A stretch of 40,483 nt of DNA from a virus: positions 1 through 40,483 of the IMG/VR virus record IMGVR_UViG_3300022602_002739; one strand, 5' to 3'. Made by a program: the position numbers and the translations under genes. The notes under the pieces are model-generated. The model ran no database searches. It worked only from the letters and a program-made list of their open reading frames with translations, and had not been told where the DNA came from. Position 1 is the stretch's first letter. The number at the start of each line of letters is the position of its first letter. Below are positions 5,983 to 36,302 of this stretch, in pieces.

Positions 5983-6237
5983 ATGAGAGCAAACGAATTT
6001 ATCAACGAAAAAGCCAAGCGAGCGTTGTGTGTTGGAACAACACCGGACAAAGACTTAGGTGCCAGCCAACTAGCCAGTTGTAAAAGTCAAGGGCTTCGTG
6101 CTCGCGACGGAGAAAAGAGTCATTTGATTACACACGGTAAACGTAAAGTTCGTATTGTAGTCGGTGGCAAACGTATTAAGGGACGCAAATACGGCGGCCC
6201 GTTGCCAGATTATGGAACTAGGAAAGATCAGTTATGA
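5983..6237 (+). CDS. Small basic protein with capsid-targeting-like leader, 84 aa
   Basis: The N-terminus MRANEFINE, then K, resembles T4 internal-protein leaders, in which gp21 cuts after [L/I]xE; INE fits. The mature part is very basic (KSHLITHGKRKVRIVVGGKRIKGRK), suited to DNA binding in the head, and includes a CxxxQGLRARDGEKS stretch typical of small phage proteins annotated as DUF5872-like (resemblance only). No Shine-Dalgarno is visible and the late promoter abuts the ATG. It overlaps the lysozyme-like gene by 4 nt, so the two are co-made late. Confidence 0.75.
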   Translation: MRANEFINEKAKRALCVGTTPDKDLGASQLASCKSQGLRARDGEKSHLITHGKRKVRIVVGGKRIKGRKYGGPLPDYGTRKDQL

Positions 6238-7157
6238 AAGTTTTTGAAGTTATATCAGAGATAGCTGATCCAGGCACAAATTTATCAACGATGATGAATA
6301 AAGCCAATCAGAACGCTACAAATCAAGCACAAGGACTAGCTGGTAATATCAATGACATCATGGGACAGATTAAGAGTGGTGATGTTAATAAAGCTGTAAA
6401 CAGTGCCTTCAAACTTGTTCCACCTATGGGTCGTATTAGTCCACAGGTTGCCGATGTGCAAAAAGTATTACAAAACATGGGATTCGACATTGGCCCAACT
6501 GGTATTGATGGTGTAAGAGGTCCCTACACTAGTAATGCTATTAAACAATTTCAAAAGTCTGCTGGTATAACTGTAGACGGGGATCCGGGACCTGAAACTA
6601 TTGGAGCAATGAATCAGGTAGTTGCAACTGATCCTAAAATTGTAGCAGGTTTAACAAAAAGCACAGATGCTGATGTTAAAATGCGTAGCGGTCAAAAGTT
6701 TAGCAGTACAGTAGGTACAGGTGTTGGTTCTTCGGCTAGCGCAGACACAGCTATGAAGTTCTTTATAAGCAAAGGTTGGACATCCGATCAAGCTGCAGGC
6801 ATTGTAGGTAACTTACAAGCAGAGTCTGGTGCTAATCTTAAAACTAATGCTGTCGGTGATGAAGGACAGGCTTATGGAATTGCACAATGGCATCCTGACA
6901 GAGCTGAACAGTTTGCCAAGGTTATAGGCAAAGACATTAGAGGATCTAGTTTAGAAGATCAACTAGCATTTGTTCAATGGGAACTTACTCATACAGAATC
7001 TAACGCTGGAGACAGAATTAAGTCTTGCGAAACAGCACAAGATGCAGCTGCGGCAATGGATGCTTACTACGAACGAAGCAGTGGTTCAGCTAGAGGACAA
7101 CGTATAGGCAATGCACTAGCATTGATGAAATCACAAACTCCTACAGCTACAGCATAA
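6234..7157 (+). CDS. Peptidoglycan hydrolase with PG-binding and tail-lysozyme-type domains; CTS-like leader
   Basis: 307 aa. Residues 1-9 (MKVFEVISE) form a T4-like targeting leader ending in ISE. A peptidoglycan-binding type 1 domain spans roughly 65-130 (VQKVLQNMGFDIG...GPYTSNAIKQFQKSAGITVDG). The catalytic domain, about 170-300, matches the phage tail lysozyme family: MKFFISKGWTSDQAAGIVGNLQAESG, with E197 the likely catalytic acid, then GQAYGIAQW. There is no signal peptide. Together this suggests an enzyme carried in the virion that opens the murein at DNA entry rather than a classical endolysin, although an endolysin role remains possible. Co-transcribed with the basic CTS protein before it. 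Confidence 0.88.
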   Translation: MKVFEVISEIADPGTNLSTMMNKANQNATNQAQGLAGNINDIMGQIKSGDVNKAVNSAFKLVPPMGRISPQVADVQKVLQNMGFDIGPTGIDGVRGPYTSNAIKQFQKSAGITVDGDPGPETIGAMNQVVATDPKIVAGLTKSTDADVKMRSGQKFSSTVGTGVGSSASADTAMKFFISKGWTSDQAAGIVGNLQAESGANLKTNAVGDEGQAYGIAQWHPDRAEQFAKVIGKDIRGSSLEDQLAFVQWELTHTESNAGDRIKSCETAQDAAAAMDAYYERSSGSARGQRIGNALALMKSQTPTATA

Positions 7158-9249: not shown

Positions 9250-10071
9250 ATGAAAAAGATTCTATTTGCGCTAGTACTAGCTCTAGTCAGCGCATCCAGC
9301 TTTGCCTGGACACAAAGAGCTCCACAAGATCCACAGACATGTAAAGTACATGCGCCATACGGATTTCCAGAAGCACAAGGCGTACAGCCACTTTGCCAAC
9401 AAGCATATCTAGTAGGATACGATGCGGCCGCTAAACTACCAAAGTATGTAACCTACGAACTATTGCCACAAAACGCACTAGGATGTGTAGCACGTACTAA
9501 CGCATTTGCTCCAAACCAATTCGTACCAAACGGTGCAGTTCCAGCTGACTATGCTGGCACAGGCTACGACAAAGGACACATGGCTCCAGACGGGGATTTG
9601 TCCTGGGACCCACAAGTGGAATACGAATCATTCTTGATGACAAACATGAGCCCACAAGCTGGATCTCTTAACAGGGGCGCGTGGAAATTACTTGAAACTT
9701 CAGTAAGAGGATGGGCAGTTCAACAAAACCAATCTTTCACTGTGATGGCTGGTAATATATACGGGCCTGGCGACAAAACAATTGGCAAGGGAGTTGTTGT
9801 ACCACATGCTTTATACAAGATTGTTATTGATAATCAAACAGGGCAAGTTGCTGGTTGGAGGTTTCCACATGTAGCACCTTATCCTAATTTAGGTAACGAC
9901 TTGACAAAGTTGCGTATGCCCATTGCTCAAATTGAACAAGAAGCAGGCGTTAAATTTGCTTTCCCTGCTAACGCTAAGGAGTTACAACCAGGGCAAGAAT
10001 GGCCGGTGGATTTTGCCAAGTTAACTAACAGCAAAAGACAGAAGTGTGGAGCAAATGCTTCCGCTGATTAA
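9250..10071 (+). CDS. Secreted DNA/RNA non-specific endonuclease (NucA/EndA type)
   Basis: 273 aa with a clear signal peptide (KK, then LFALVLALVSA, cut after SFA). The core motif is DKGH (107-110), a conservative form of the DRGH of Serratia nuclease, with H110 the expected general base; NMSPQ (132-136) and N141 fit the metal-binding segment. Such enzymes degrade any DNA or RNA in the presence of Mg2+. Export means it acts in the periplasm or outside, for instance clearing extracellular or competing phage DNA or yielding nucleotides after lysis. Its own late promoter and a purine-rich AAAAGG site precede it. Its 3' end overlaps the leftward homing endonuclease by 4 nt. Confidence 0.9.
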   Translation: MKKILFALVLALVSASSFAWTQRAPQDPQTCKVHAPYGFPEAQGVQPLCQQAYLVGYDAAAKLPKYVTYELLPQNALGCVARTNAFAPNQFVPNGAVPADYAGTGYDKGHMAPDGDLSWDPQVEYESFLMTNMSPQAGSLNRGAWKLLETSVRGWAVQQNQSFTVMAGNIYGPGDKTIGKGVVVPHALYKIVIDNQTGQVAGWRFPHVAPYPNLGNDLTKLRMPIAQIEQEAGVKFAFPANAKELQPGQEWPVDFAKLTNSKRQKCGANASAD

Positions 10072-10835
10072 ATCTTAGATTTACACTTATTAAAATGCCA
10101 GCGTTTTGCATTACTTGCATCGCTGGCTTTTTCACAATGTGGACAAATTAATATTTCTCTTTTCTTATTATGTGGCCCAGTGGGCTGTCTCATTTTAGCA
10201 AGAGATTCATCTGTATGATTTTTATTCTTAAAAGTTCCAGGTTTACCGTATCTTGGATTGCTCTCACCTGATAACTTCTCTTTTTGCTTAGTTTGTATGT
10301 TGGCAGCTTTTTCCTCCCCGTATATCTCTTTATAGGTCATTCCTATACGAGCTTTACCGTAAGGTAATTTTTTTGATTTTTCTTTTGGTGGCTGGCAATT
10401 TATTTTTTTCTTACAAGATTCTTTGAACTTTTTAACTTTCTCTGCAGCCTTTTCTGGACCATATATTTCTTCGTAACTCTTTCCCTTGTTTAACGATGGT
10501 TGCCCTTTGAAACGATTACTTTGATTAATCCTCATCTGTTCAGTCCATATAATACCATTATTGCCGCCAGCACCACTTTCTTCTGTTAAATTAGCCCATT
10601 CGTTGCTTTCTACTACATTCCACAGTTTACTATAATACTGTCCCCATTCAGCCACTTCTTGATTATTTTGACATTCTTTAAGTATTTCTGTATCATAATC
10701 ATAGCCGTGTTTATCTAAATGTTTTCGCCAGTAGATACCAGATCCAGGATATATATGCGGATTATTAGAGGAAGTTTTGCCCAGATATTTTAGGCCAGTT
10801 TTTCTATGGGTCTTTTTGTATAGGTAAATACACAT
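10068..10835 (-). CDS. GIY-YIG homing endonuclease with YEEIYG repeats
   Basis: 255 aa on the opposite strand to its neighbours. The N-terminal GIY-YIG motif appears as IYLYKKT (3-9) and KYLGKT (16-21), followed by a conserved Glu around 63. The middle contains two copies of a YEEIYGPEKAAEK-like unit, then a NUMOD3-like segment (NPRYGKPGTFKNKNHTDES), and a C-terminal zinc-finger-like CPHC...H...C. This is the layout of free-standing T4 Seg-type enzymes that cut phage DNA and spread themselves. A ribosome-binding site AAGGAG precedes the ATG. Mobile, likely of recent arrival; not needed by the neighbouring genes. Confidence 0.88.
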   Translation of the reverse strand: MCIYLYKKTHRKTGLKYLGKTSSNNPHIYPGSGIYWRKHLDKHGYDYDTEILKECQNNQEVAEWGQYYSKLWNVVESNEWANLTEESGAGGNNGIIWTEQMRINQSNRFKGQPSLNKGKSYEEIYGPEKAAEKVKKFKESCKKKINCQPPKEKSKKLPYGKARIGMTYKEIYGEEKAANIQTKQKEKLSGESNPRYGKPGTFKNKNHTDESLAKMRQPTGPHNKKREILICPHCEKASDASNAKRWHFNKCKSKI

Positions 10836-12121: not shown

Positions 12122-12357
12122 TGAGCGATCAATTACAACAAGTAGCAGCTAGTGGTGATCAATGGGCAGCCGAACGTGCCAATTACGCAATGCAAGTTCA
12201 CGGTGCTGTAGGTGCCGGACAACTTAGTGCTAGTGAAGCCAAAGAGATTCTACAAGATATGATTAACACACAGCAGTTACAAGAACAGGCCAATGCTGAT
12301 CATGTAAAAGCTGCTTTGTTCTTTGGCATTATGGAACTAATAAGTTTCTACGCTTAA
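12121..12357 (+). CDS. Small helical unknown protein, 78 aa
   Basis: Starts at the last base of the lipoprotein stop after a GGGGAGA ribosome-binding site. Gln/Ala-rich helices fill most of it, ending with a hydrophobic tail ([14 protein letters not shown]) that may touch membrane. Its 3' end overlaps the convergent ALAS gene by 29 nt. Function unknown. Confidence 0.68.
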
Positions 12358-13543
12358 AGATTTCTGAAAGAGCTTGTACTAGGTCCTCAATCATTCCGTC
12401 ATCGTGGAATGGAGTTGGTGCAAACCGTAGTCTTTCTGTACCTACAAGAACTGTTGGCGAATTTATAGGCTGCGCATAGATACTATATTCAGTTAGAAGT
12501 TCGTCGCTAATCTCTTTACACAATTTAGCTTCTCTTATCATCACAGGCACAATGTGACTGGTACTACAATCCATAACTGGAATTCCAGCAGCTTTTAATC
12601 TATATTTTAACTTACGTGCTCGCTCTTGATGTTTATCACGAACTTCGTTGTGATCTTTAAGCCATTTAATTGCTGCCATTGCACCGCTACAGCTTACAGG
12701 ACTCATACTTGTTGTAAAGATAAAACCAGCGGCAACACTACGAATGGCGTCAGCTACAATCTTATCGCAAGCAATGTAACCTCCTTGAACTCCAAAGGCC
12801 TTTCCCAAGGTTCCGTTGATTATATCAATCTTGTCTTCAAGCCCAAGTTCCTCTACTTTGCCGCCGCCAGTTTTACCATACAACCCTACAGCGTGTACTT
12901 CGTCGATGTAGGTTATAGCCTTGTATTTTTCAGCTAGTTTACATATTTCTTTAATATGCCCAACATCGCCGTCCATACTATACACGCTTTCAAATACTAC
13001 ACAGGGAGTTTTACCCTGTGCAAAACTAATCTTAAGTTTCTGTTCTAGATCTTCTAAGTCGTTGTGTTTGAAGACAACTTTATCTGCACGACTATGACTA
13101 ATACCTACAATAATACTGTTGTGATTGTTTTCATCGCTGATGTATTCTATGTTAGGAATAATCTTAGCAAGAGCAATTAGTGTCCATTCGTTAGCTACAT
13201 AAGCTGAACTAAACAGAACAGCCTTTTCTTTCTTATGTAAAGTGGCAAGTTCATGCTCTAATGCCACATGATAGTGACTAGTTCCACCAATATTACGTGT
13301 TCCACCTGAACCAGATCCTGTATGATCCAATGCTGTATGCATGGCATCTAAGACTATTTTATTCTGCCCCATGCCAAGATAATCGTTACTACACCAATTA
13401 ACTATAGTTTTAATGTTGTAAGGACCGTACCAGATAGCCTGTGGGAACTTGCCCGTTTCACGCACAATGTCGTTAAACACACGATATTTGCCGTTGTCTT
13501 TTAGGTCTTGTATTAATTTTTCAAAAGGTTGCTTGTTAATCAT
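12329..13543 (-). CDS. hemA: 5-aminolevulinate synthase (ALAS)
   Basis: 404 aa, full length for bacterial ALAS of the C4 pathway. It condenses glycine and succinyl-CoA to 5-aminolevulinate, the first step of heme and other tetrapyrrole synthesis, using PLP. Visible features: NDYLGM (53-58), [14 protein letters not shown] (75-88), DEVHAVG (214-220; D214 and H217 contact PLP in the family) and the PLP lysine K248 in [12 protein letters not shown]. The motif set fits ALAS rather than BioF or KBL. It is leftward, opposite to most genes, with no clear Shine-Dalgarno. A phage ALAS could boost heme, bacteriochlorophyll or cobalamin precursors during infection. Because ALAS is typical of alphaproteobacteria, the gene was probably taken from such a host. 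Confidence 0.93.
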
Positions 13544-28551: not shown

Positions 28552-28746
28552 ATGGCAAGAACACCAACACCAAGTAGCATTACACTAGCCCGTGCTACAG
28601 CACAGGCTAAACTAGACACTATGAAAGAAAAAAACGCTGCAATTCGCGCACAGATGGGGTTAACTGGTAACCAACTGTTAAAAGTAAAACCTTTAAGTGC
28701 TGAGCGTAAAGCATCGATTGCAAATTCAAAATACGGTAAAAAATAA
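28552..28746 (+). CDS. Small basic helical protein, 64 aa
   Basis: AAGGAAG ribosome-binding site. Lys/Ala-rich helices (ITLARATAQAKLDTMKEKNAAIRAQMG) and a basic tail (SIANSKYGKK). It lies between paralogue 4 and the subtilisin gene and overlaps the latter by 1 nt; it may be a partner or inhibitor of the protease or a DNA-condensing head peptide. No family recognised. Confidence 0.68.
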   Translation: MARTPTPSSITLARATAQAKLDTMKEKNAAIRAQMGLTGNQLLKVKPLSAERKASIANSKYGKK

Positions 28747-30308
28747 TGCAAGAATACGTCATTGTCGCTAAGAGCGAAGCAGATATTGACAGCTTACACG
28801 CTGAGTTAGTTGCAAATGGAACTGAGGTTGCTGATCTTGTTCCATTGAACGAACTTATGTATCACTACATGCTAGAAGACGATGAAGCGGCTGAAATCGC
28901 TCAAGATCCTCGTGTAGAACACATACATAAAAAACTACCAGATCGCACGATCCGTTTGCACACAGTTGCACCTGATGTAGTAGAAACTCCCCGTGCTTAC
29001 AACAACACAGCTGGCAACTTTGCTCGTCGTGCTACCAATCCAGACTTTTACAATGTAAACTGGGGACTTCGTCGTGCTACACAATCAACTACAGAAAGCG
29101 CACCAGGTGCTACCTATGCAGCTGATCGTGATGGCACTGGTGTTGACATTGTGATCATGGACGATGGCGTACAATCAGGACATCCGGAGTTTGGTGCAAG
29201 ACTACAAACTGGGTTTGATTGGTATGCTGGCGCTGGAGTTGCAGGCACAATGCCCACAGGTTTTTATGACTACAGCATCTATGGTGAAGCCGAACACGGA
29301 ACGCATGTGGCCGGCATAGCCGCAGGCCGAACCTATGGTGCTGCAAAAGGTGCAAACATTTACAGTCTGCGCATATTCGATAATACCACCAGTGGCCCTG
29401 CAAAGAGCTTTGATGCTTATACAGCATTTGATTTACTTCGTGCTTGGCACATTAGAAAAAACACAGCTGGACCACACTACACAGGTCGCCCAACAATAGT
29501 TAACATGAGTTGGGGTTATGTTTGGTACTACAGTGATAATCCAAATCGTCCTAGCCAAAAGGTTATCAACAAGATTAGTTACGAAGGCACTACTACCAAC
29601 TACGCCAGTTATACACAATATTTGTCTAGTAAAGGCATGGTGGGTCCTGATCACTGTATTGTTGATCCAGCTACTGAAACTCGTATTGCTCAAGGCCAAG
29701 CAGCTGGTATTGTTTATGTAGCAGCCGCTGGTAACTATGGACACAAGATCGATGTAAGCGGTGGAGCAGACTATAATAACTATTACACACTACCATTTAA
29801 CAACACAATTACTACAGCTAATACACCAATTTATTATCATAGAGGCGGAAGTCCTAGTGGTACTATTCGGGTAAGTGCTAGTGACAGTGCAACAGTTCGT
29901 AGTGGAAATAGCTATCTAGAACAATTGGCCTATTACAGCGAGCGTGGTCCAGGCTGTGATATTATCAGTCCAGGAACTGATATCACATCAAGCACTAGCA
30001 ATGTAAGCAGCTTTAGTCCTTTCCAATATGTGTTTGGTACACAACAACAAAATACATATAATGCTTGTAAGATAGCTGGAACCAGTATGGCAACCCCTCA
30101 AGTAACAGGCGTTGTTGCGTTGTACTTACAGGCCAATCCCTCAGCTACTCCGGCGGCTGTAAAAACTTGGTTACTGGGACAAGCTAAGACTAATCAAGTG
30201 TACAATCCAACTTCAAGTACTAACGCATGGAGCAACAGTACAGCACTATTAGGTGCGCCTAATAAGTATTTGTACAATCCATATCACGGTGGATACGCTG
30301 GAGCATAA
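28746..30308 (+). CDS. Subtilisin-like serine protease (S8)
   Basis: 520 aa. The full catalytic set is present: D139 in IVIMDDGV, H184 in EHGTHVAG, the oxyanion N330 in VAAAGN and S447 in GTSMATPQV. Residues 1-63 (QEYVIVAKSEADIDSLHAEL...) resemble an I9-type inhibitor propeptide, so self-cleavage may activate it. There is no signal peptide, and no C-terminal sorting element is seen. It ends the transcript of the structural-type paralogues, which suggests a virion-associated protease that processes structural proteins or host surface proteins during adsorption. Phage S8 proteases are uncommon; the catalytic assignment itself is firm. Confidence 0.93.
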   Translation: MQEYVIVAKSEADIDSLHAELVANGTEVADLVPLNELMYHYMLEDDEAAEIAQDPRVEHIHKKLPDRTIRLHTVAPDVVETPRAYNNTAGNFARRATNPDFYNVNWGLRRATQSTTESAPGATYAADRDGTGVDIVIMDDGVQSGHPEFGARLQTGFDWYAGAGVAGTMPTGFYDYSIYGEAEHGTHVAGIAAGRTYGAAKGANIYSLRIFDNTTSGPAKSFDAYTAFDLLRAWHIRKNTAGPHYTGRPTIVNMSWGYVWYYSDNPNRPSQKVINKISYEGTTTNYASYTQYLSSKGMVGPDHCIVDPATETRIAQGQAAGIVYVAAAGNYGHKIDVSGGADYNNYYTLPFNNTITTANTPIYYHRGGSPSGTIRVSASDSATVRSGNSYLEQLAYYSERGPGCDIISPGTDITSSTSNVSSFSPFQYVFGTQQQNTYNACKIAGTSMATPQVTGVVALYLQANPSATPAAVKTWLLGQAKTNQVYNPTSSTNAWSNSTALLGAPNKYLYNPYHGGYAGA

Positions 30309-30364: not shown

Positions 30365-31144
30365 ATGTTTACAAGTTATCAATTAAAACAAGACTGGAAT
30401 CAAGAGTTACCTTATTATTGGTGCGACAACAGTCCTTTCAAAAGTCATTTGTTTAATGCCATGAGTCTTACATTCCCTGACGGTGAACGATTCTATGTTC
30501 ATTCGGTTAAGGCATTCAAAGATCAAATTACCGATACAGCATTGCTAGAAGAAATTGATGAATTTGCCAAGCAAGAATATTTTCACAGTTATGCTCATAA
30601 ACAATACAACGATTGGTTGGATCGTCAAGGATTGCCAGCCGAACAATTAAGACAGGATGTGGTAAAGATTATCAGCTGGGCTAACCGTAAACTTACAGCA
30701 GAAACTAGACTAGCTGTAACTGTATGCCAAGAGCACATTACTGTTATACTAGCGGTCAACGGCCTAACTAATAGAAGTTTTTATCGAAGGATGCATCCGC
30801 ACTTTGAACATATTTGGCGTTGGCACAATATCGAAGAAGTAGAACATAAATCTACCAGTATGCTAGTATGGCAAGCTATAGGCGGCAAACCGAATAAGTT
30901 GCATCGTGTTATGATTCTTGCTACAATAGTGTTTTGGTATACTGTATTAAAATTTGCTGTTAAGATGCTACATCGGGACAAACAGTTATGGAAATGGCGT
31001 ACAGTAAAAGATGCTTGGGATTTGTTATTTTCCAAAAACGGAATGTTCAGCTTTGGAAGAGACCGCTGGTTTGCTTTCTTTAAGAAAGATTATACTCCTT
31101 TAGACCATAACGATGCTAAACTATTAAATTATAGAAAAACATGA
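30365..31144 (+). CDS. PF10118-type metal-dependent hydrolase / di-iron protein
   Basis: 259 aa. The pattern matches the predicted metal-dependent hydrolase family PF10118: carboxylate/histidine pairs in helices, EYFH (71-74), EH (123-124) and WHNIEEVEH (153-161), giving a ferritin-like set of E...ExxH...E...ExxEH ligands. A hydrophobic, partly membrane-like segment lies around 178-202. Reaction unknown; the ligand layout suggests a di-iron oxidase or hydrolase. It overlaps the acyl carrier protein gene by 4 nt, so an acyl-ACP substrate is an attractive inference (desaturation, hydroxylation or hydrolysis of a lipid precursor). Confidence 0.8.
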   Translation: MFTSYQLKQDWNQELPYYWCDNSPFKSHLFNAMSLTFPDGERFYVHSVKAFKDQITDTALLEEIDEFAKQEYFHSYAHKQYNDWLDRQGLPAEQLRQDVVKIISWANRKLTAETRLAVTVCQEHITVILAVNGLTNRSFYRRMHPHFEHIWRWHNIEEVEHKSTSMLVWQAIGGKPNKLHRVMILATIVFWYTVLKFAVKMLHRDKQLWKWRTVKDAWDLLFSKNGMFSFGRDRWFAFFKKDYTPLDHNDAKLLNYRKT

Positions 31145-31380
31145 ACGATATTACACAACAAGTTATAAAAATTATAGCAGACGAATTACACTTAAAACTC
31201 GAAGCAGTTACAGAGGACAAAGTGCTTAAAGACGATCTCGGTGTTGAAAGTTTAGAAGCATTAGAAATTCTTATAGCTCTAGAAGACGGGCTTAATGTTG
31301 TGTATCCAGAAGATAGCCACGAACATATTACTACAGTACAGGATGTTATTGACTTAACTCGAAAGTTGTTGAAGAGATGA
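31141..31380 (+). CDS. Acyl carrier protein
   Basis: 79 aa, the normal ACP length, acidic and four-helical. The phosphopantetheine site is S37 within GVESLEALEI; the usual D-S-L is E-S-L here, a conservative change. The helix II region (EALEILIALEDGLNVVYPEDSHEHITTVQDVIDL) has the ACP pattern, including the TVQDVIDL end. It must be loaded by a host phosphopantetheinyl transferase, since none is seen here. Translational coupling with the PF10118 protein indicates a dedicated partner. Confidence 0.9.
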   Translation: MNDITQQVIKIIADELHLKLEAVTEDKVLKDDLGVESLEALEILIALEDGLNVVYPEDSHEHITTVQDVIDLTRKLLKR

Positions 31381-34255: not shown

Positions 34256-35239
34256 ATGCAATTAAGAGAATTATCAAAGCCAGTTACTAGCAAACAGCTT
34301 AACGAAAGCCTTGCTAAGAAATTTGGATATAAATTAAATTTAGAACAGTTTACAGATGTGCAACTTGAAGATGCACGTAATAAACTACGCACCAAATTAA
34401 GTCAATTTGAAGTTAGCGAAAGTTACGGTTCGATTAGTGAAAGCCCAGACTATCAAAAAACTCGAGTGATGCTTGATTGCATTAATACAGAAATTATGGA
34501 ACGTGAAGAAGGCAAAAGCCCAGATTGTCATTGTGATCCATGTGAGTGCGATGATGAAGAACACGATCATAAAGAAGAACACAAGGCCGAAATGCACAAA
34601 AAATTAAAAGCCGAAAAATTAAAAGAAAAAGCTGAACAGTACAGTGTTCCAACTTGTTGGATCAACAGTGCTATGAAGCGTATTGAATTAGATGAAAGCG
34701 ATGAAGAAGAATTAGCTGCAGAACTAGTAACTCGTTATGACTTACGTGAGTCAGTGGCCAATCACATTGTTTATCTAAAAGAAGGCGAAGAAGAAAAAGC
34801 TGAAGTTATTATGGCAACTAAAGACATGGTCGACCGTGTTACAGGCTGGCTAGAAGATGCTGCTGAAATGAAAGCAGAACAACTTCTTGAACTAACAGAT
34901 TCCATAGGAAAATCATTTGGCAGTGATGTCGCTAGACAATATACAGACGCAGTTAAACCAGCATTAGAAGCAATTTATTCTACACTAGAAGGCAGTCGTC
35001 AAAGTATCCAAGGCGCATTAGCAATCGTATCAGGCGGTGAAGCCCCAACAATGGGTGCTGGTACTCCTCCAATGGGCGGCGAAGCTCCAGGCGGTGCGAT
35101 GCCTCCAGAAGAAGGCCCAAAAGTTCCTCCAGGCGCAGACATGGGTTCAGGACCAGAAGGCGTTTCAGGCAGAGAAAAACGTGAAAGTGTCGACTACAGT
35201 CGTCGACTAGGCATGTTACTTGCATCAAAAAAAAAGTAA
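34256..35239 (+). CDS. Prohead-core/scaffold-like protein with targeting-like leader, 327 aa
   Basis: The N-terminus MQLRELSKPVTSKQLNE, then S, ends in LNE. Residues 20-90 (KKFGYKLNLEQFTDVQLEDARNKLRTKLSQFE) are conserved-looking in T4-like marine phages. A His/Cys-rich acidic patch (CHCDPCECDDEEHDH, about 98-112) could bind metal. Long charged helices follow (170-255), then a Gly/Pro/Met-rich linker and a basic end (RRLGMLLASKKK). Overall composition (acidic, helical) fits a core scaffold, but no specific T4 gene can be named. It ends in a nine-A run directly before TAA; see the frameshift feature. Confidence 0.7.
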   Translation: MQLRELSKPVTSKQLNESLAKKFGYKLNLEQFTDVQLEDARNKLRTKLSQFEVSESYGSISESPDYQKTRVMLDCINTEIMEREEGKSPDCHCDPCECDDEEHDHKEEHKAEMHKKLKAEKLKEKAEQYSVPTCWINSAMKRIELDESDEEELAAELVTRYDLRESVANHIVYLKEGEEEKAEVIMATKDMVDRVTGWLEDAAEMKAEQLLELTDSIGKSFGSDVARQYTDAVKPALEAIYSTLEGSRQSIQGALAIVSGGEAPTMGAGTPPMGGEAPGGAMPPEEGPKVPPGADMGSGPEGVSGREKRESVDYSRRLGMLLASKKK

Positions 35240-35319
35240 TTCTTGAGACAATAGATCCCTTAGTTCTTACACTAAGGGCTCTTCAAAGTGCTGCAAACAA
35301 TCAAAATTCCGAAGCCCAA
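35227..35319 (+). promoter_or_regulatory. Candidate -1 frameshift site or non-AUG start joining two genes
   Basis: Nine A then G (35227-35236) contains the heptamer A AAA AAG in phase with the upstream frame, directly followed by TAA. In the -1 frame the sequence continues without stop: VILETIDPLVLTLRALQSAA, then NNQNSEAQ, into the ATG at 35320. This stretch looks protein-like and lies in the frame of the next gene. A 7-bp hairpin (CCCTTAG/CTAAGGG, 35257-35278) lies 20 nt downstream. Alternatively an ATT at 35239 starts the second gene. Confidence 0.55.
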
Positions 35320-35559
35320 ATGACATGGGATGCGCTTAATAACGCAGGTCAAAATTACGGATCTCCCGATATAGATTACGATCGATTTGCTGCTCGTTGG
35401 GAAAGTGATCCAATTCTTAAAGAACTAGTAGCACGTTTTGACGAACACGGCGTTGTTATTAAAACTGACAAGCACGAACCTAAACCAGAGCAAGGTGAAC
35501 CTAAAGGTAACGAAATTAGCAAAATGGCTAAACGTGCCACTCAAAAGGCTTTGAAATAA
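35320..35559 (+). CDS. Conserved-type phage protein, 79 aa from ATG (probably longer)
   Basis: The first standard start is ATG 35320, without a clear ribosome-binding site. The frame is open for 28 codons upstream with a good protein-like sequence (ETIDPLVLTLRAL), so the natural product is probably about 106 aa, or is the tail of a fusion with the upstream protein. Sequence: TWDALNNAGQNYGSPDIDYDRFAARWESDPILKELVARFDEHGVVIKTD, ending in a basic helix. Function unknown; likely linked to the upstream scaffold-like protein. Confidence 0.7.
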   Translation: MTWDALNNAGQNYGSPDIDYDRFAARWESDPILKELVARFDEHGVVIKTDKHEPKPEQGEPKGNEISKMAKRATQKALK

Positions 35560-35585: not shown

Positions 35586-36302
35586 ATGACCTTATTAACT
35601 GAAAGATATACCTATACTTCTATTAGCAGAGAAAGTGTAGAAGGCAAACGCTTATACGCGACACCGGATGGATCAAAAGTACCTAGTGTAACTACCATCT
35701 TAGACAAAACTAAACCCCAAGAAGAAAAAGATGCATTAATGGCATGGCGCCGTGCTGTCGGTGAAAAGAAAGCACAAGAAATTACTACCGAAGCTGCTAA
35801 TCGCGGAACACGCATGCACAAGTGGCTTGAAGATTATGTTAAGACAGGCTCTATAGGCCAACCTGGCACTAATCCATTTAGCCAAGAAAGTCATAAAATG
35901 GCCGAATGTGTTATTAGTCAAGGACTATGCAACGTAAACGAAGTATGGGGTGTAGAAGTTCCATTGTACTTTCCAGGATTATATGCCGGCACTACTGATG
36001 CTTGCGGTTTACATTTAAATGAACAGGCTATCCTAGATTACAAGCAAACTAATAAACCCAAGAAAGAAGAATGGATTGAGGATTATTATCTACAACTGGT
36101 GGCGTATAGTGAGGCACACAACGAAGTCTACGGTACTAAGATTCGCAAGGGCGTGATATTAATGTGCGTTAAGCCGCCTGCTACAGGCCCGTTTGCCGGT
36201 ATTCCTGTATATCAAGAATTTATTCTTGACGGTAGTGACTACGACAAGTATGTTGATCTATGGTGGAAGCGCCTTGAACAATATTATATGTTACAAGGTT
36301 AA
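35586..36302 (+). CDS. PD-(D/E)XK nuclease (RecB-like exonuclease)
   Basis: 238 aa. RecB-type active site: H78 in [12 protein letters not shown]124, D138 in [10 protein letters not shown]151-Y-K153 in [10 protein letters not shown], and the motif IV-like Y-Y-L-Q-L-x-A-Y (167-174). Such proteins in T4-like cyanophages and pelagiphages are annotated as exonucleases. Role probably in DNA recombination, end processing or host DNA breakdown. A sigma70-like promoter suggests early expression, unlike the late genes around it. Confidence 0.88.

Follow-up and report, generated by a model that had tools for sequence, protein, structure and literature searches.

In the -1 frameshift signal of Escherichia coli dnaX, a Shine-Dalgarno-like stimulator is located about 10 nt upstream of the slippery heptamer. 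This signal and those of IS3 share three further elements, namely an in-phase A_AAA_AAG, a stem-loop downstream of it and a 0-frame stop nearby, and the junction described here has all three. In E. coli, few -1 motifs are as efficient as A_AAA_AAG, and in IS3-type signals the stem follows the heptamer by 4-10 nt, as an empirical rule (PMC4066793). A change of frame can also arise during transcription; in bacteria, slippage on runs of nine A is known (PMC1088944). In phages, a frame change extends part of the virion protein in the case of the T7/T3 coat protein and of Lactobacillus phage A2, and virion proteins are likewise extended by frameshift in the Listeria phages A118, A500 and PSA (PMC5009743).

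Here we analyze a window of viral DNA, by which we mean the whole stretch of 40,483 nt, that contains a junction of this kind. A gene, called here gene 1, ends at a slippery run, and an open -1 frame, called here ext, continues from it (Table 1). The preliminary description of this junction had named it dnaX-like. The name is appropriate as regards the in-phase A_AAA_AAG, but not as regards the stimulator upstream: no Shine-Dalgarno-like element was found at the usual dnaX spacing, and the nearest AGG, if there is one at all, ends 18-27 nt upstream. Furthermore, the junction differs from both dnaX and IS3 in that the stem is mostly farther from the heptamer (8-30 nt), and in that the conserved run has nine A instead of six. 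As in IS3, but not as in dnaX, the shift yields the longer of the two proteins.

The junction and its reading frames

Gene 1 finishes with TCA AAA AAA AAG TAA, the G being at 35236. Reading in the -1 frame from the GTA that begins at this G meets no stop for 107 codons, up to a TAA ending at 35559, and a shift into this frame would give a gene 1-ext fusion of 434 aa, versus 327 aa for the unshifted protein. There are 28 ext codons before the ATG at 35320, and an ATT occupies 35239-35241. On recheck, the coordinates given in the preliminary description were exact in every case.

Table 1. Coordinates of the features at the junction, with the evidence for each.
Feature	Position	Strand	Evidence or remarks
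Gene 1	34256..35239	+	ORF; 327-aa 0-frame protein
Nine-A run	35227..35235	+	at least 9 A in 76/76 distinct junctions
Second heptamer A_AAA_AAA	35227-35233	+	in phase; overlaps A_AAA_AAG
Slippery heptamer A_AAA_AAG	35230..35236	+	in phase; A_AAA_AAA or A_AAA_AAC in some relatives
ext, -1-frame extension	35236..35559	+	107 aa; conservation, open in 76/76, AlphaFold model
0-frame stop TAA	35237..35239	+	TAA in every relative
RNA hairpin CCCUUAGU-UCUUAC-ACUAAGGG	35257..35278	+	covariation, localised folding z, per-locus stems; candidate 3' stimulator
ATG	35320..35322	+	choice of ATG/GTG/TTG gene caller; start not conserved
PD-(D/E)XK exonuclease gene	35586..36302	+	phrog_298 E 3e-50; synteny

The run at the end of gene 1 is the only one of at least 8 A in the 40.5-kb window, for which a first-order model predicts about 1 run of at least 9 A; by itself, the nine-A run is unremarkable in the window. 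As for the heptamer, among the 32 window ORFs checked an in-phase A_AAA_AAG is present only at the end of gene 1.

Some other genes of the window should be mentioned. At 30365-31380 (plus strand), a gene predicted to encode a metal-dependent hydrolase (PF10118, E 1e-65) overlaps the gene for a small phosphopantetheine-attachment protein, which is acyl-carrier-like (PF00550, E 1e-7), and this pair is an unusual cargo for a phage. A subtilisin-family protease gene (28746-30308, plus strand; PF00082, E 1e-31) adjoins virion-type genes. The minus strand carries a class I/II aminotransferase gene (12329-13543; PF00155, E 7e-63) and, near it, a homing-endonuclease-like gene (10068-10835; phrog_314).

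Conservation of the slip site

Relatives were searched for in viral contigs (IMG/VR). The ext query gave 28 and then 42 loci. With gene 1 there were hundreds, and for each query the 80 best were retrieved; the junction set comprised 189 loci, which represent 76 distinct junctions. In all 76, gene 1 ends in at least nine A, followed by G, C or nothing and then by TAA. The run is A9G in 61 junctions, A10 in 9 and A9C in 6, and is shorter in none. The heptamer A_AAA_AAZ (Z = G, A or C) is in phase in every one, with the TAA directly after it. In addition, the base preceding the Lys codons is always A (TCA in 73 junctions, CCA in 3; TCA makes up 33% of the Ser codons), and the ext frame remains open for 100-122 codons in the 76 junctions. 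The junction signal is far beyond chance, because each of the 76 distinct homologous junctions carries it.

In 452 kb of the relatives' flanks no further run of at least 9 A was observed, versus about 27 expected, and runs of 7 and 8 A do occur there. This group of phages strongly avoids long A-runs; the mutability of such runs may be another cause of their dearth elsewhere. The longest contigs among the relatives measure 345 kb (L018) and 356 kb (L098), and the window is therefore probably part of the genome of a giant phage. A tblastn search of phage records with gene 1 and ext gave no match, and no relatives of ext were found in bacterial and archaeal genome contigs.

RNA structure downstream of the slip site

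Local folding was evaluated by z scores in segments (folding windows) of 50 nt from 55 representatives. The mean z was -3.2 to -3.3 at 0 and +8 relative to the stop, with z below -2 in 75-80% of the representatives, and was close to 0 at more distant offsets in both genes. The structure was detected only by this windowed test over many relatives; when 131 nt of the window were folded as a single sequence, a z of -1.1 was obtained, which is not significant.

The hairpin of the window has weaker outer pairs that start at 35254. In the window's clade, the CCCUUAGU/ACUAAGGG stem together with these outer pairs is 91% paired, compared with 28-54% for slid partners. Covariation is seen as GC/AU and CG/UA exchanges, and the number of hairpin cells changed on both sides was above that of all 500 shuffles. 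In other clades this place is taken by other stems, among them GGCTGCAGGTT/AATCTGCAGCC, ATCGGAAGCTG/CAGTTTCCGAT and CATAGAGCCC/GGGCTCTATG. A strong stem is missing in about a dozen junctions, and is present in the six junctions out of six that have the weak heptamer A_AAA_AAC.

Counted from the heptamer, the main stem begins at 17-20 nt in the window and at 8-30 nt in the relatives, which is mostly beyond the 4-10 nt of IS3-type signals. In the minimum-energy fold of the window, a weaker outer helix begins already at 6 nt from the heptamer. We propose the hairpin as a likely frameshift stimulator, although the stem mostly lies farther than 4-10 nt and about a dozen junctions lack a strong one. 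A search of Rfam gave no match. A terminator-like match on the minus strand (35278-35257), which is the identical hairpin, was at chance level and was discarded.

Proteins encoded at the junction

The gene 1 protein consists of a helical core, a variable Gly/Pro/Ala-rich linker and a conserved C-terminal motif, GREKRESVDYSRRLGMLLASKKK; its predicted model is almost wholly helical, with a low pTM of 0.31. It matches phrog_14154, annotated as a virion structural protein (hmmscan E 6e-9), and in profile-profile comparison the CBB gp298 family (hhalign 96%, E 3e-9). These comparisons make gene 1 a homologue of a virion protein found in the CBB/121Q/RaK2-type giant phages. The preliminary description had called gene 1 scaffold-like, a label that no family match supports. 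A Pfam search with gene 1 and ext returned nothing. At about residues 86-130, the gene 1 protein of the window and those of L032 and L050 contain a Cys-rich CxxCHxxPCxC insert; L034, L036 and L044 have at the same place an alternative insert with a KPDYIDLDKDGNKKE motif, which has the look of an EF-hand-type calcium loop.

In its AlphaFold model (pLDDT 72), ext shows the order helix-strand-helix-helix-strand-strand, as in winged helices, and the first long helix corresponds to residues 8-22, before Met29. We consider ext a predicted winged-helix-like domain. Foldseek against PDB gave weak winged-helix matches only, the best being the MCM8 WH domain (VIA-align Z 5.5, rmsd 3.1 over 68 residues), and because the structural matches are weak no function is given to ext. 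Against BFVD there was one match below 1e-3, an unnamed protein of an uncultured phage. The exonuclease gene that follows ext is a conserved neighbor, found in CBB/121Q/RaK2-type phages too.

Probable mechanism of the frame change

A frame change that fuses ext to gene 1, whether ribosomal or transcriptional, is very likely. The fusion would be the only product of ext, because ext lacks a usable start codon of its own. The preliminary description had proposed a -1 shift joining the 327-aa protein to a 107-aa extension, and the proposal gains support, at the level of sequence, from the slip site conserved in 76 of 76 junctions, the coding and open -1 frame with its conserved residues before the Met, the lack of a general start codon and the local RNA structure.

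Programmed -1 ribosomal frameshifting is, in our opinion, the best explanation, and a reasonably probable one. The 327-aa protein would come from the majority of ribosomes, which read TCA AAA AAA AAG and stop at the TAA. The remaining fraction would slip back one base, with the lysine tRNAs on A_AAA_AAG or on the overlapping A_AAA_AAA and with the aid of the RNA structure just 3', and would go on reading through GTA ATT CTT GAG to produce the 434-aa fusion with its winged-helix-like C terminus. The rate of slipping would set the ratio of the short to the long virion protein. We infer that the ribosome is the slipping machine, and likewise the efficiency of the slip and the function of the ratio in the virion. 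On the one hand, the constant phase, the variable Z, the adjacent stop and the 3' structure favor the ribosome; on the other hand, the stem mostly lies beyond 4-10 nt, about a dozen junctions lack a strong one, an upstream Shine-Dalgarno-like element is missing at dnaX spacing, and nine A are kept beyond the need of the heptamer.

The main remaining rival, absent from the preliminary description, is transcriptional slippage: the polymerase would add one A to the nine-A run (or drop two), and some mRNAs would then read TCA AAA AAA AAA GTA. The conservation of at least nine A in all the junctions, a length greater than the heptamer requires, speaks for it, but does not decide the question, because nine A in phase also create the second, overlapping ribosomal heptamer. 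The polymerase is further favored by the invariable A before the Lys codons, by the lack of other such runs in the 452 kb of flanks, and by the A9C junctions, which are without an efficient ribosomal motif. Nine A is, moreover, a length with selection against slippage in bacteria and the one used by Thermus dnaX (PMC1088944). The window is thus comparable to Thermus thermophilus dnaX and to IS-element transcriptional slippage in its nine A and in the avoidance of such runs elsewhere (PMC1088944), and is unlike them in the fixed phase of the run, the fixed adjacent TAA and the conserved 3' RNA structure. It should be noted that an invariant phase and a directly adjoining TAA are needless for transcription, and that a structure 3' of the run is untranscribed when the polymerase would slip. 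Taking both sides together, we regard transcriptional slippage as possible but rather unlikely. In the window, ribosomal and transcriptional slippage lead to the identical fusion protein, with the junction SKKKV, so the mass spectrometry of the junction put forward in the preliminary description cannot separate them there.

A combination of the two may also be considered, as a speculative proposal that we find doubtful. The A9 would be a double device, in which slippage of the polymerase gives a base level of fusion and the overlapping heptamers, aided by the hairpin, tune ribosomal slippage; it would have arisen when a giant-phage lineage lost the start of the second virion gene, with recoding as the sole route of expression left.

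Initiation of the second protein

Explanations without a frame change fare much worse. It is highly improbable that the second protein is translated separately from the ATT at 35239, in a TAATT stop-start overlap, the alternative offered in the preliminary description. ATT is very rare as a start codon in bacteria. The codon is found in the window and in 34 of the 76 junctions after the ZTA, and its place is taken by AAT, ACT or AGT in 32; the ATT start fails, since only these 34 carry it. Fifteen junctions (15/76) have neither an NTG nor an ATN codon among the first five of ext, and as a common mechanism the ATT start is refuted by L044, L037, L038 and L058: in these four, no codon ahead of DPL is NTG, ATN or ACG.

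There is hardly any more chance that the protein begins at the ATG at 35320 and that the -1 frame upstream is fortuitous. This ATG opens an ORF of 79 codons, and several relatives have ATG at the same position, but the nearest one (L030, 94%) has TTA in its place, and 37 of the 76 junctions have no ATG, GTG or TTG in the first 25 ext codons. The preliminary description had pointed to conserved residues before this Met as a sign of the extension, and to homologues beginning at it as a sign against. In the alignment of 22 ext sequences, six positions before Met29 are invariant (E4, D7, P8, L9, L13 and Q17), and helix 1 of the predicted fold (residues 8-22) also precedes Met29. Because of this conservation, the helix, the TTA of L030 and the 37 junctions, the ATG is refuted as a general start. 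As had been anticipated, gene callers limited to ATG, GTG and TTG truncate ext or miss it.

Finally, an error of sequencing or assembly in the A-run, with a real gene in one frame, has practically no chance of being the explanation: homopolymers are error-prone, but 76 distinct junctions from many metagenomes show an equal frame relation, the run being followed by G, A or C and the TAA being constant.

Counterparts in giant phages

The order gene 1, gene of about 110 aa, exonuclease is found in seven phages, CBB, XbC2, 121Q, RaK2, XaC1, Hallingskeid and Vibrio phage 2.275.O, in which the middle gene has its own ATG and the gene 1 homologue is without the slippery run. Pectobacterium phage CBB resembles the window in that it has a gene 1 homologue (gp298), a protein of about 110 aa (gp299) and the same exonuclease, and the arrangement is as in CBB in Escherichia phage 121Q (gp27/gp28) and Klebsiella phage RaK2 (ORF135/ORF136). 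Unlike the window, CBB and some of the others provide the second gene's own ATG with a Shine-Dalgarno-like sequence. The CBB-type gene pair corresponds to phrog_14154 and phrog_15050, both annotated as virion structural proteins. When ext was compared with the phrog_15050/CBB gp299 profile, a score of 23.9 was obtained, whereas the highest score from 60 column shuffles was 16.7, and the probability was only 17%; ext and CBB gp299 occupy the same position, between gene 1 and the exonuclease. We infer, on a putative homology of ext, that a separate virion gene was likely turned into a frameshift extension.

As in T7/T3, phage A2 and the Listeria phages, the frame change would give a C-terminal domain to some copies of a virion protein. 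The proteins are unrelated, however, the extension being here predicted as winged-helix-like and not Ig-like, and, unlike in those cases, the putative counterpart of ext has a gene of its own in cultured giant phages. A frameshift of the tail assembly chaperone G/GT, whose place is between the genes for the major tail protein and the tape measure, was discarded on account of the wrong position, since the next gene is the exonuclease; the sole tape-measure-like match in the scanned ORFs is at 6234-7157.

In the literature searched, which covered few subscription papers, the site was not described, and the recoding of these genes and of this clade appears undescribed there; the type of mechanism is itself known from dnaX/IS3 and from Thermus dnaX. 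The series of G, A and C after the run, together with the gain and loss of hairpins, forms a natural set on which ribosomal slippage can readily be tested against transcriptional slippage. Recoding of these virion genes would be conserved throughout a whole clade of giant-phage-like viruses known only from uncultured material; in the cultured relatives the two parts appear to be encoded separately. This suggests a route by which two genes may become a fusion whose ratio is controlled.
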